This document shows, piece by piece, positions 21,654 through 26,108 of a stretch of 64,000 nucleotides of DNA (its first letter is position 1; every line of letters begins with the position of its first letter). Source of the stretch: Bradymonas sediminis (lineage in GTDB: Bacteria > Myxococcota_A > Bradymonadia > Bradymonadales > Bradymonadaceae); the NCBI RefSeq assembly GCF_003258315.1, contig NZ_CP030032.1, forward strand, positions 162,001-226,000. The letters run 5' to 3'. The notes beneath the pieces were generated by a model that saw only the letters and a program-made list of their open reading frames with translations, was not told the DNA's origin and ran no database searches. The position numbers were made by a program, and so were the translations under genes.

Positions 21654-21998
21654 GATGCTACTCAAGGTGGGAATGTTTACAGCAATGCTACCGGGGATCG
21701 GTCGCGTTATCGACCGGCCAAGCTCAGGGCCTGGTGATGAAATCTACACGCCCGCGTTCGGGTCGTTTCGCAAAATAACTTGAATAGCCCCAGCATTCGA
21801 GCCGATGCCGTGTGGCATCTTCGCAAAATAGGCGATCGTAGAATTATTGTGAAGTGATCGAGGCATGATTGCAACCTTTATTATGATTCTAATCTGGGCC
21901 AGAATCGTTTCTTTTTGATACGATACACGCAGAATTTGGTTTTTTGGGGGTGAATTACAAATTTATTGGAAAATGCCGGTTAAATTGTAAAATACTTG
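21654..21998. other. AT-rich intergenic region before the small RNA
   Basis: This stretch is clearly more AT-rich than the genes around it, especially after 21840. It should carry the promoter of the minus-strand unknown protein. I see no open frame, hairpin or repeat in it that I would defend. Confidence 0.5.
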
Positions 21999-22026
21999 TT
22001 GACATACGCCCACGCTTCCATATGAT
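21999..22026 (+). promoter_or_regulatory. Strong sigma-70-type promoter for the small RNA
   Basis: A perfect -35 box TTGACA (21999-22004), a 16-base spacer and TATGAT (22021-22026, five of six matches to TATAAT) are present. It is the best housekeeping-type promoter I see in the window. The predicted start, about 7 bases downstream, is at the first base of the RNA stem at 22033. Confidence 0.8.
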
Positions 22027-22032
22027 GGCCAC

Positions 22033-22162
22033 GTAGCGTTCGGAGGACGGTCGACATGCAATCCCCCCAGGCCGTTAGTCAAGTTCATGTCCTATGACTA
22101 CGTCAACGTCCTCTGAGCGCTACTCTTTTTGTTTCGCCTCTTATTTCTAAGAGGCGTTTTTT
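22033..22162 (+). ncRNA. Orphan structured small RNA
   Basis: No open frame is apparent, but the segment is framed by a near-consensus promoter and intrinsic terminators. The 5' end GTAGCGTTCGGAGGACG (22033-22049) pairs without a bulge with CGTCCTCTGAGCGCTAC (22107-22123). This is a 17-bp closing stem with two G-U pairs. It encloses 57 bases that hold GACATG/CATGTC and TAGTCA/TGACTA alternatives and an unpaired CCCCCC tract at 22063-22068. A TCTTTTT run follows the stem directly, so a product of about 98 nucleotides is likely. A second terminator would give about 130. It does not match 6S, SRP, tmRNA or RNase P RNA features that I know. The C-rich loop could pair with Shine-Dalgarno sequences. 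Confidence 0.72.
22136..22162 (+). terminator. Second terminator of the small RNA
   Basis: A perfect 8-bp stem (GCCTCTTA 22136-22143, TAAGAGGC 22148-22155) with a TTTC loop is followed by GTTTTTT. It sits behind the T-run at 22126-22130 that follows the main RNA stem, giving two terminators in tandem. Confidence 0.9.
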
Positions 22163-22312
22163 GTTTCTTGGTCGAATTTTTCCACGACATTCTGGGGCAT
22201 GATGGCGGGCGGCTGCTGCGGGGCTTTCTGTTGGGAGTTTCGGGACTTCGGGCAGATCAGCGGGTCGCTGGCGTAGAATTTTTAGGGGAGCTCTGATATT
22301 GGCAATAGCGGA

Positions 22313-22357: not shown

Positions 22358-24583
22358 ATGAATTACCTGCTTCGCGGCCTTCGCGCCGGCATGTTCGCTG
22401 GACTTCTTTTGAGCATTTGGAGCTTCATCGCCACGCGTTCGGCGATGGGCGATGCGATGAGTGGAATCGGCCTCACCTACGCCGTGAGCGCCTATGGCCT
22501 GCTGGGCGCGCCGCAGATTATCTTCGGCGCGCTATTGGGTGGGTTCATCGGTGCGTGGGGCGGGGTGCTTGGCGAAGATTTTCGGGAGCGCCTGCGCCGC
22601 CCGAAGGTGGACCTGCGAAGCGCCGCGATCCTGCTGAGCGCGCCGGTGATGGCGGGCGTGTTGGGCGCGGGCGTGGGGCTTTTGCATCTGGCCGTGACCT
22701 CGAAATTTGTGCAGCCAACCTTTCAGGCGCTGGGCCTGGTCCTGGGGACGGTGTTGTTGTCGGTGGGTGTGATGGCGGCGTCTGCGCCGGTTTATCGAAT
22801 CTTCTATGCGATATTCTCGCGGCTCTTTCCGGTGCGCGACGCCGAGGCGTCGACCCCGCGGGCGACCTCGTTGGTCCTGGGCGTCTATGCCATTGGCCTG
22901 CTGGTGGCGGCGATCGTTGGGTACCAATACGCGATGGGGCTCAAGGTGTGGAGCGCGACGCTGGTGCGCATGGCGCTGGCGGCGATGTTGCTGACGCCGC
23001 TAGTTTTCGGGCTGATGCAGCGCGTCAAGATCGAGCATAAGGCGTGGCGGTTCAGCGGGCTGATCGGCGCGCTCGTCGCCTTTATTTGCCTGGGCGCGGC
23101 CTATGACGCGACGAGCTCCTCGGCCGCGATGCGCCGGGCGACCACGCGGGATTCGGCGCTCTTCTCCAAGACCGCGATGCTGCTGCAGCCGCTGGCGGAC
23201 CGAGACGGCGACGGCTTCGCCGGCGGCTTTGGCGGCAACGATTGCGACGACAGCAACCCCGATATCTACCCGGGCGCCCACGACATCCCAAACAACGGCA
23301 TCGATGAGAGCTGCTCGGGGGCCGACGCCGCGCCCCCCAAACTAAAGGATTCTCAGGGCTATAAGACGGTGCACCGCGCCATCAACACCGCGCACACCAA
23401 CGCGGCCAACGTCGCGGCGAATATCCCCGACCCGCCGCCGAACCTGGTGATGATCCTGGTCGACACGCTTCGCGTCGACCACCTGGGGTTCGCAGGCTAT
23501 GAGCGCGACACCAGCCCGAATATCGACGCGCTGGCCAGGGAATCGGTCTTCTTTGAGGACGCTTACGCCCCGGCGCCGCATACCCCGCGCAGCATCCCGA
23601 TGCTCTTCTTTAGCCGCTATCCGAACCGGCTGAAATGGTATCGGCATAATTGGAATTACCCGATTATTTTGCCCGAAAACCTCGGCTTTTTTGAGGTGCT
23701 CCAGGAGGCCGGGTATAAGAACGTGGGCATGAGCAGCCACTTCTATTTTAAGGAAGAGCAGGGCATTCGTCAGGGGTTCACCGAGTGGGATAACGAGGGC
23801 GCCGGCAGCATCTCGGAGTCCAACGACGCCATCGCCTCGCCGGCGATCTGGAAGAAGGTCGAGCCGAAGATCGAGGAGTTGGCCAAGGCCTGGCACGACG
23901 ATAAGGAGCAATTCTCGCTCTTCGTGCACCTCTTCGACCCGCACGCGCGCTGGATTCCGCACGCCGATTTTGATTTCGGCAAGGGGAGCAATACCTACGA
24001 GCGCCACGTCAACGCCTATGACTCCGAGATCGCCTTCTCCGACTCCTATGTGGGCGGGATTATCGAGAAGTTAAAATCCGAGAATCTCTACGAAGACACC
24101 ATCGTGGTGATCACCTCGGATCACGGCGAGGGCTTTAATGAGCATGGGTATTATTTCCACGGACAGACCCTTTATAATGAGATCTTAAAGGTGCCGCTGA
24201 TTATCCGCGTGCCGGGCTGGCATTCGCGTCGGGTCAAAGGCCCCGTGAGTCTGGTCGACGTCGCGCCGACCCTGCTTGAGCTCTTCAAGGTCTCGGTCCC
24301 CTCGGTCTTTGAGGGCCAGAGCCTGGTCGAGGCGATGCTCGGCCGAAGCGGCGCGCCCAAGCGCCCGGTCTTCGCCCAATTGCTCCCCTATACCAATTGG
24401 AAGGAGCATCACGAGGCGATCATTTTGGGCGACGAGAAGTTCATCATGGACCTGACCAACGGCGTCGAGGAGTATTATGACCTGGCCAATGACCCGGGTG
24501 AGCAGGAGAATTTGCGCACCAAGAAGAAGGAGCGCGCCGATGAGCTAAAGCAGATGCTCAACGATTTTATGCAGGCGAAATAA
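22358..24583 (+). CDS. Membrane-anchored sulfatase/phosphatase-superfamily enzyme with calcium loop
   Basis: 741 residues. About six hydrophobic helices occupy residues 10-250. Then comes a Ca-binding-like loop, DRDGDGFAGGFGGNDCDD (281-298), of the MopE/thrombospondin-3 sort. The sulfatase-fold domain runs from 361 (NLVMILVDTLRVDHLG) to about 690. The first metal site Asp369 and the second TSDHGEGFNEHG (Asp588, His589) are present. At the nucleophile position the sequence is APHTPRSIPML with Thr409; there is no Cys or Ser in a C/S-x-P-x-R motif. The formylglycine mechanism of true sulfatases is therefore unlikely. Thr at this place is used by LtaS-like phosphoglycerol and phosphoethanolamine transferases. 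An envelope-modifying role is inferred. The SpoIIAA-like gene follows after 22 bases. Confidence 0.88.
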   Translation: MNYLLRGLRAGMFAGLLLSIWSFIATRSAMGDAMSGIGLTYAVSAYGLLGAPQIIFGALLGGFIGAWGGVLGEDFRERLRRPKVDLRSAAILLSAPVMAGVLGAGVGLLHLAVTSKFVQPTFQALGLVLGTVLLSVGVMAASAPVYRIFYAIFSRLFPVRDAEASTPRATSLVLGVYAIGLLVAAIVGYQYAMGLKVWSATLVRMALAAMLLTPLVFGLMQRVKIEHKAWRFSGLIGALVAFICLGAAYDATSSSAAMRRATTRDSALFSKTAMLLQPLADRDGDGFAGGFGGNDCDDSNPDIYPGAHDIPNNGIDESCSGADAAPPKLKDSQGYKTVHRAINTAHTNAANVAANIPDPPPNLVMILVDTLRVDHLGFAGYERDTSPNIDALARESVFFEDAYAPAPHTPRSIPMLFFSRYPNRLKWYRHNWNYPIILPENLGFFEVLQEAGYKNVGMSSHFYFKEEQGIRQGFTEWDNEGAGSISESNDAIASPAIWKKVEPKIEELAKAWHDDKEQFSLFVHLFDPHARWIPHADFDFGKGSNTYERHVNAYDSEIAFSDSYVGGIIEKLKSENLYEDTIVVITSDHGEGFNEHGYYFHGQTLYNEILKVPLIIRVPGWHSRRVKGPVSLVDVAPTLLELFKVSVPSVFEGQSLVEAMLGRSGAPKRPVFAQLLPYTNWKEHHEAIILGDEKFIMDLTNGVEEYYDLANDPGEQENLRTKKKERADELKQMLNDFMQAK

Positions 24584-25002: not shown

Positions 25003-25473
25003 TTAGTTGCGGTGGGTGGCGGGGCTGGTGTGCAACTGCGGCGGCGTGGTGACGTCGACGTGTTTGATATGGTGGTCGCGCGGGGTTCCCAGGGCGATCC
25101 AGGCCGCGGCCATCAGCAAGATCATCGCCGCGGACACGGCCTCGTACGGGATAAACGAGCGGCGCGGCGCCTGTGGGTTGAAGAAGCGTCCGCCCGACTC
25201 GGCGCGGATGCGCGCCTGTACCTTGGTGAGAAAATCCGCGGGGAGCGGCTCGGCCGGCAGCGACTGCGTGGCGCCCATGATCTCACTGAAGGCGTCGAAT
25301 TCGCGGCGAAGTTCGGGGTCGCGCAGCAGTTCGGCGCGAAATTCATTTCGCTCCTGTGGGGTCATATCGTCTTCAAGATACGCGATAAATTGCATATCTT
25401 GGCGGGCGATATCCTCCAGGGAATCGAAGTCTTCGGGGAGTTCGGAGAGGTTGGATTTGGGTGATATGCTCAT
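25003..25473 (-). CDS. Anti-sigma factor (membrane-anchored)
   Basis: 156 residues. The N-terminal half (IARQDMQFIAYLEDDMTPQERNEF, ELLRDPELRREFDAF) has the helical layout of anti-sigma domains but lacks the zinc-binding His-x3-Cys-x2-Cys. It should therefore be a zinc-free anti-sigma factor. One membrane helix (YEAVSAAMILLMAAAWIALG) lies near residue 115, followed by a short His-rich periplasmic tail. It overlaps the upstream ECF sigma gene by 4 bases, the usual arrangement in which the membrane protein holds its sigma factor until a signal releases it. Confidence 0.86.
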   Translation of the reverse strand: MSISPKSNLSELPEDFDSLEDIARQDMQFIAYLEDDMTPQERNEFRAELLRDPELRREFDAFSEIMGATQSLPAEPLPADFLTKVQARIRAESGGRFFNPQAPRRSFIPYEAVSAAMILLMAAAWIALGTPRDHHIKHVDVTTPPQLHTSPATHRN

Positions 25474-26108
25474 GATTTACTCGCAGTATCAGTGAGTCCA
25501 GCGTTCTTCTTTTTAGCGCTCGCCGCGCCCGGGGCGTAGCGCGTGGCGACATAGTCTTTGAGCGCCGCGCGTGCCCGGTAGAGTCGGCTCTTTACGGTGC
25601 CCTCCGCGACCTCCAATGCCTCGGCGATCTCGGTGTAGCTCATATCCTCGACATCGCGCAGCACGACGACCGTGCGATGCTCTTCGGATAGGGTAGCCAG
25701 CCCGGCGTTGATGATGGTGTGCAGCTCGTTTCCCAGCGCGTGTTCATCGGGCTGGGCCATCGTATTCTGCGTGCCACTGGCCTGCAGGGTGGCGTCCGGG
25801 GTGTCTTCGAAATCCTGGTGCTTCTTATAGGAGCGCCGCTTTAGATATTTGACTCGATTGAGCGCTCGATTGCTCGCGATCCGGTAAATCCAGGTCGAGA
25901 ACTTCGACTCGCCGCGAAAAGAGTCAATATATTTAAAGACCGCTACGAAGACCTCCTGGGCCACATCCTCGGATTCCTCGCGGTCGCCCACGATGCGGTA
26001 GACGACGTTGAAGACCCGCTGCTGATACGCGGTCACCAGCTCGGTAAATGCGTCTTCGTCACGCTTTTTGAGCGCCGCAATTAATTGTCGCTCAGGTCGT
26101 GATATCAT
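25470..26108 (-). CDS. ECF (RpoE-type) RNA polymerase sigma factor
   Basis: 212 residues. Region 2 shows VTAYQQRVFNVVYRIVGDRE and ESEDVAQEVFVAVFKYIDSFRGE, with the STWIYRIASNRALNRVK -10 recognition segment. Region 4 shows LSEEHRTVVVLRDVEDMSYTEIAEALEVAEGTVKSRLYRARAALK. The linker is longer than average (about 40 residues, rich in Asp/Thr/Gln) and a Lys/Ala tail follows region 4. The downstream overlapping gene is its membrane anti-sigma factor. A GGAAC-N17-GTC site upstream suggests autoregulation. The likely trigger is envelope stress, by analogy. Confidence 0.95.
   Translation of the reverse strand: MISRPERQLIAALKKRDEDAFTELVTAYQQRVFNVVYRIVGDREESEDVAQEVFVAVFKYIDSFRGESKFSTWIYRIASNRALNRVKYLKRRSYKKHQDFEDTPDATLQASGTQNTMAQPDEHALGNELHTIINAGLATLSEEHRTVVVLRDVEDMSYTEIAEALEVAEGTVKSRLYRARAALKDYVATRYAPGAASAKKKNAGLTDTASKS

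Follow-up and report, generated by a model that had tools for sequence, protein, structure and literature searches.

Among described bacterial small RNAs (sRNAs), the nearest in kind to the RNA reported here are those with C-rich loops. Mycobacterial 6C/B11 is trans-encoded, and its host bacteria have no identified RNA chaperone of the Hfq or ProQ kind; B11 carries two C-rich loops and represses a target whose leader holds a six-G tract (PMC10470900). RepG of Helicobacter pylori is an abundant free-standing sRNA whose C/U-rich loop pairs with a G-repeat in an mRNA leader (PMC8295292). The alpha-r14/NfeR1 RNAs of Alphaproteobacteria (the 'cuckoo' RNA family) combine ultraconserved C-rich anti-Shine-Dalgarno loops with divergent stems (PMC10746234). 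From Myxococcota, Pxr of Myxococcus xanthus is a trans-acting sRNA that works without Hfq (PMC5684412), and paralogues of it are reported in some species (PMC5568312).

Members of the bradymonad group have genomes of 5.0–8.0 Mb, and stranded RNA-seq data for Bradymonas sediminis FA350 are public (PRJNA559243, PRJNA559253; PMC7460792). Our literature search found no paper joining Bradymonadales with a small RNA, and the main text of two genome-wide ncRNA surveys does not mention them.

Promoter, terminators and coding potential of the locus

We analyzed a 64 kb stretch of the B. sediminis genome (5.05 Mb, one contig), referred to below as the window. On its plus strand, positions 21999–22026 carry a sigma-70-type promoter made up of a -35 box TTGACA (21999–22004), a 16-nt spacer and a -10 box TATGAT (22021–22026), matching the consensus at 11 of 12 positions. 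The promoter scan returned four such sites against 1.0 expected from shuffled sequence, and this one scores best; its boxes are homologous in most copies of the RNA. Downstream lies the predicted mature small RNA of about 98 nt (22033–22130, plus strand), recognized both by its fold and by our covariance model R1, which scores the window copy at 97.9 bits (E = 4.3e-27 in a search of its own genome). The minimum-energy fold of the 101-nt stretch has -39.1 kcal/mol (z = -4.97), and none of 200 shuffles was as good.

The RNA ends in a U-tract, TCTTTTT (22124–22130), that follows the closing stem P1 and completes the first terminator; most copies likewise have T-runs after P1. This P1 terminator would both end the RNA and stabilize it. 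A second terminator (22135–22168, plus strand), supported by folding, by the terminator scan and by similar tails elsewhere, consists of a 9-bp hairpin at 22135–22156 with TTTTTTGTTT (z = -4.9 against shuffles) and a T-run with a TTTTTTGTTTCTTG tail, the hairpin plus T-run covering 22135–22162; read-through past the first terminator is predicted to give a transcript of about 130 nt. Only short mechanical open reading frames of 30–55 aa overlap the RNA, none of them convincing. The first-pass annotation had named a near-consensus promoter, a TCTTTTT run, a second terminator and the lack of a reading frame at this site, all of which agree with our scans. It had also drawn a 17-bp closing stem (22033–22049/22107–22123), which does form in the minimum-energy fold, but its innermost 3 bp (22047–22049/22107–22109) compete with helix P2 and are not conserved across the family.

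Among copies, a long, T-rich tail with CTTG or CTAG at its end is seen repeatedly, and the CTTG form also stands after the terminal hairpin of others (for example L033 and L038). The tail after the T-run often reads TTTTCTTTTCTTG or TTTTTTGTTTCTTG, as at 22157–22170 in the window, and tails of this type are also seen at L031, L032, L034, L035, L036, L039, L040 and L186. A looser tail pattern often follows T-runs (25%), which leaves just the exact forms as telling; these are rare in 1.226 Mb of the window genome, with TTTGTTTCTTG found once and TTTCTTTTCTTG not at all.

Distribution and novelty of the RNA family

Two covariance models, R1 built from 26 copies and R2 from 41, were used to search 377 sampled Myxococcota genomes with a match threshold of E ≤ 0.001. 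Together they recover 46 copies in 25 genomes, at one to six per genome, of which 15 found by R1 and five more found by R2 lie outside the source alignment of R1. Every one of the 21 examined genomes from the window's family (in Bradymonadales, close to Lujinxingiaceae) is a carrier, and the other four carriers all belong to one genus of a different family in the same class; the remaining 352 Myxococcota genomes have no copy at this threshold. Plain blastn against 57 relatives detects a core (approximately 22041–22100) in most of the genomes that share the window's family. The window genome itself holds two copies, at 184,033 and 2,924,266; the RNA is thus no orphan, as it had first been called. 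A genome elsewhere in the phylum (G189) reached E = 0.001 with R1 but only 15.1 bits with R2 and was rejected, as were weak blastn matches within the class at L019, L025, L026 and L028–L030, which are chance matches of 18–30 bases in other sequence. Phage, plasmid and viral collections gave no credible match, three viral contigs that fit a loose pattern scoring at most 19.4 bits.

One genome, G003, has a tandem pair of copies 135 nt apart (L036:4648–4882), which differ in kissing sequence (UGUGCA/UGCAUA and CAUGGA/UCCAUG). A subfamily (L081, L082, L083, L084 and L087) has a P1 with a conserved sequence of its own (ACGGAGUG...UUCGAC); its promoter boxes are less clear, and it spans more than one genus with unrelated neighboring genes.

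The covariance-model search against known RNA families that had been suggested as a check left the locus without a relative: Rfam 15 matches nothing at gathering score across the whole 64 kb, and relaxing the threshold to E = 10 around the site (21850–22300) brings up no credible family. The matches seen in lax Rfam searches, such as Acido-1 (E = 0.047, opposite strand) and a miRNA hairpin model (E = 0.29), are due to chance. This agrees with the earlier statement that the RNA does not resemble 6S, SRP, tmRNA or RNase P RNA. At the site, neither 6S (RF00013, a long hairpin with a central bubble) nor bacterial small SRP RNA (RF00169) is matched. Separate 6S candidates lie at other positions in 13 of 24 relatives, and the SRP RNA proper sits elsewhere in L044, distinct from the C6-loop RNA. 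In the window genome the Rfam 6S model gives nothing at E ≤ 0.001, and its 6S may be highly diverged.

The comparative sequence evidence makes it nearly certain that the copies constitute a conserved, structured, free-standing RNA family. Neither Rfam nor the literature searched contains the family; its kind, the C-loop sRNA, is known, and its scaffold is not.

A three-way junction with kissing loops

By sequence comparison, the family fold is a closing stem P1 that encloses two hairpins, P2 and P3, whose loops are joined by a loop–loop (kissing) pseudoknot. The 5′ strand of P1 (22033–22046) pairs with 22110–22123, which together with the following U-run makes terminator 1, and all 14 pairs show two-sided changes. 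P2 is formed by ACGGUC (22047–22052) and GGCCGU (22070–22075); it is paired in 98.9% of cells and nearly invariant, its outer CG/GC pairs being fixed and covariation confined to the inner (last) two. P3 joins UAGUCA (22076–22081) to UGACUA (22095–22100), with two-sided changes at all six pairs and 99.6% of cells paired. The kissing helix connects GACAUG of loop 2 (22053–22058) with CAUGUC of loop 3 (22086–22091); across the family it measures 5–9 bp, the first 5–9 nt of loop 2 pairing with loop 3. The structured RNA of the first-pass annotation thus stands, with its promoter and terminators, and gains a pseudoknot that had gone unseen; ACGGUC/GGCCGU, listed there as one of two 'alternative' 6-bp helices, is the conserved helix P2 and no alternative.

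Among 45 distinct copies, 91.3% of cells are paired, against 65.0 ± 0.8% in shuffled and 35–40% in slid controls. For covariation, the score of 0.714 compares with 0.218 for shuffled and 0.09–0.16 for slid alignments, and none of 500 shuffles reached it. Two-sided changes are found at every pair of P1, P3 and the kissing helix (seven of seven tested pairs in the latter). Pair counts for P1–P3 lean towards the model, because the model used for alignment contained these helices; it did not contain the kissing helix, whose covariation is therefore independent. Loop 2 scores 15.7 with its own loop 3, while partners permuted among copies score 10.5 ± 0.45, with a maximum of 12.2 in 2000 permutations, although kinship among copies makes this control, like the shuffles, generous. 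Descent alone is an insufficient explanation, since divergent kissing pairs such as CACUGCC/GGUAGUG, CUCGACA/UGUCGAG, GACCGUCAU/AUGACGGUC and UCGUUAC/GUAACGA are mutually unrelated. The kissing match is weak in the second copy of the window genome and likewise in a few others.

Conservation with compensatory stem changes, the test on which the small RNA had been staked at the outset, is thus seen family-wide. The same covariation bears on whether the locus might be an inverted repeat that arose by chance, or no more than a pair of terminators with no RNA function. Hairpins followed by a T-run are indeed common, and our scan found three terminator-like sites where 1.8 are expected; however, covariation over four helices, a pseudoknot included, already refutes chance, and we give this explanation practically no weight.

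An invariant C6 run in loop 2

The near-invariant unpaired positions are few. Loop 2 carries CCCCCCA (22063–22069 in the window, the C6 run itself at 22063–22068), with the six cytosines complete in 44 of 46 copies, as often as the adjoining A is kept (44/46); besides these, there is an A preceding the 3′ strand of P3 (45/46) and, less fixed than C6A, a G as the first base of loop 3 (40/46). The kissing strand directly follows P2 on one continuous strand, so that P2 and the kissing helix can stack, and such stacking would leave the rest of loop 2 (N2–3, CCCCCC, A) as a short bridge on which, by this model, C6 should be exposed. Because the kissing pairs and the scaffold vary freely while C6 stays constant, we infer that contacts inside the RNA do not hold C6 in place. 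On this comparative evidence C6 most likely contacts something outside the RNA in a sequence-specific manner, and the run is likely to be the recognition site.

The family has the invariant C-run of C-rich-loop sRNAs (44 of 46 copies), which the covarying fold predicts to be exposed. It resembles 6C/B11 of Actinobacteria in the C-run of an exposed loop, in being trans-encoded and in a host without an identified chaperone. However, 6C/B11 presents two separate C-rich hairpins, whereas the Bradymonadales RNA has a single C6 run, in loop 2 only, within a closed kissing three-way junction. The two belong to different phyla and show no sequence or covariance-model match: the Rfam 6C model is without a match in 21850–22300 (E up to 10) and in seven loci that hold divergent copies (E up to 1). 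RepG shares the C-rich loop, which in RepG pairs with homopolymeric G tracts, but there the loop is that of the terminator hairpin, a kissing pseudoknot is not described and the sequence is unrelated. A fixed unpaired C-rich motif on stems of diverging sequence is also the hallmark of alpha-r14/NfeR1, in which CCUCCUCCC recurs in three hairpins and complements the normal Shine-Dalgarno sequence, in contrast to the single C6A found here. Pxr differs in having three consecutive stem-loops and in being known only from myxobacteria, and the available text on it does not describe a kissing junction.

Genomic context of the copies

Most copies have -35 (TTGAC-type) and -10 boxes at matching distance, with a mean best score of 9.1 of 12 against 7.4 in shuffled sequence, and the -10 box usually ends about 2–7 nt upstream of the RNA start. 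Downstream of copies come T-runs or else a further hairpin followed by its own T-run; some copies are without a clear promoter or without a U-tract directly after P1. In the window, the RNA is followed on the same strand by a gene for a membrane sulfatase-family protein (22358–24583; Pfam Sulfatase, 9e-45), which lies outside the RNA, and a same-strand sulfatase gene stands downstream of one RNA copy in 12 genomes. Farther along, window positions 25003–26108 hold a gene for an ECF-type sigma factor together with a small, overlapping gene downstream of it; the 156-aa product of the latter, for which Pfam gives no match, may act as the anti-sigma factor.

Paralogues have unrelated genes beside them, often in convergent orientation (other or convergent neighbors stand at L031, L037, L082, L090, L092 and L094), which argues that the action of the RNA is not confined to cis. 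As the neighbors vary between copies, a trans-acting RNA is favored over a riboswitch. An own promoter and terminator in non-uniform context are what trans-acting sRNAs of the C-rich-loop kind display, and the RNA is most likely a trans-acting unit. The free-standing small RNA of the first-pass annotation, its transcript a prediction, fits this picture.

Purine riboswitches are built on a junction of P1 and two hairpins with kissing loops. The three-way junction of the family recalls them and, taken together with the sulfatase gene lying 3′ of one copy in 12 genomes and with a P1 that doubles as terminator stem, could speak for a cis-acting attenuator or riboswitch in which a ligand at the kissing junction sets read-through into that gene. 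The likeness is one of architecture only: the Bradymonadales RNA is without the conserved aptamer core, is free-standing under its own promoter, has its U-tract directly after P1, and the neighbors of its paralogues are not conserved. A fixed place before co-oriented pathway genes is seen for one copy in those 12 genomes and not for the paralogues in the same genomes, whose neighbors are other or convergent genes, so that the family as a whole lacks it. A second strong terminator follows in this window and in others, no alternative anti-terminator pairing is conserved, and the well-conserved unpaired sequence (C6A plus two positions) is too little for a typical aptamer core. We therefore regard cis-regulation of the sulfatase gene as improbable.

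The scatter of several copies per genome over unrelated sites, together with the compact pseudoknotted fold, might also suggest a self-cleaving ribozyme or a mobile-element RNA spread through copying. Most copies, however, carry their own promoter and terminator and have ordinary genes as neighbors, the primary copies stay beside the sulfatase gene, no Rfam ribozyme is matched and the collections of phages, plasmids and viruses are empty of credible relatives, which makes such an origin very improbable indeed.

Possible partners of the C6 run

How would a trans-acting C6 run operate? In the reading we prefer, to which we give about an even chance on the strength of analogy with the C-loop sRNAs, the RNA is a trans-acting sRNA whose C6 loop would pair with G-tracts of mRNAs independently of a chaperone: C6(A) would bind tracts of the (U)GGGGGG type in the leaders of mRNAs, with neither Hfq nor ProQ involved, and so alter translation or mRNA stability. 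Both chaperones went undetected in all 24 clade genomes, with positive controls detected; C-loop sRNAs are known to act without help in such a setting, which supports chaperone-independent pairing.

The first-pass annotation had proposed that the CCCCCC loop is able to pair with Shine-Dalgarno sequences. The run is complementary to G-runs and not to the usual GGAGG of the window genome. Around 845 predicted starts (1.226 Mb, about 24% of one genome), G5/G6 shows no enrichment. GGAGG does peak at the same starts, but as the choice of starts favored GGAGG-like motifs, this peak serves as a sanity check only. The flat G-run profiles at these starts led us to reject a global anti-Shine-Dalgarno action; specific targets need not yield a global peak at starts. 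Two individual candidates, at 1224619 (DsbA-family) and 663106 (aldo/keto reductase), were discarded when the G6 proved missing from the readable orthologue leaders, and G-runs in the leader of the sulfatase gene are not conserved either. In the first 1.226 Mb of the window genome, GGGGGG occurs 257 times on the plus strand and 96 times on the minus strand (2.7 times), a bias that is probably replication-strand skew. At about 644000–646600 of the same genome, outside the window, short open reading frame calls hold a repeated GGACTATCCCCGCGTCTGCGGGGGAACCG unit that looks like a CRISPR array.

A point against the antisense reading is that a covarying kissing scaffold exceeds what plain antisense sRNAs need. 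Strong promoters, the deep structural constraint, a C6 that stays constant whatever the scaffold sequence and G-tract targets that are neither enriched nor conserved are in keeping with a protein-binding, housekeeping-type RNA, whose pseudoknot scaffold would display CCCCCCA as a dock for a clade-specific RNA-binding protein without any mRNA pairing; the invariant A that precedes P3's 3′ strand might join the dock, or the RNA might titrate such a protein as 6S or Csr-type RNAs do. We consider this rather unlikely: there is no candidate protein, the known C6-loop RNAs work through base pairing (PMC10470900, PMC8295292), and the separate 6S RNA in 13 of 24 relatives and SRP RNA in L044 mean that those jobs are already filled. 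Only tentatively might the family be a new class of compact, pseudoknotted non-coding RNA, and not an antisense sRNA, in which the kissing three-way junction serves to hold out a constant CCCCCCA bridge for a dedicated protein or ligand. Were this so, the CCCCCCA-presenting RNA would be a lineage-specific housekeeping regulator of the predatory Bradymonadales.

Significance

The analysis adds a well-supported RNA family, absent from Rfam 15, to predatory bacteria for which the literature searched holds no small RNA. So far as we have checked, this fold has not been seen in a C-loop sRNA before; its covarying kissing pseudoknot apparently keeps a fixed C6 open. The predictions are precise: they specify the promoter, both ends of the RNA, its four helices and a recognition run of six bases. 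With neither Hfq nor ProQ detectable in Bradymonadales, the family would offer a handle on chaperone-free base-pairing RNAs.
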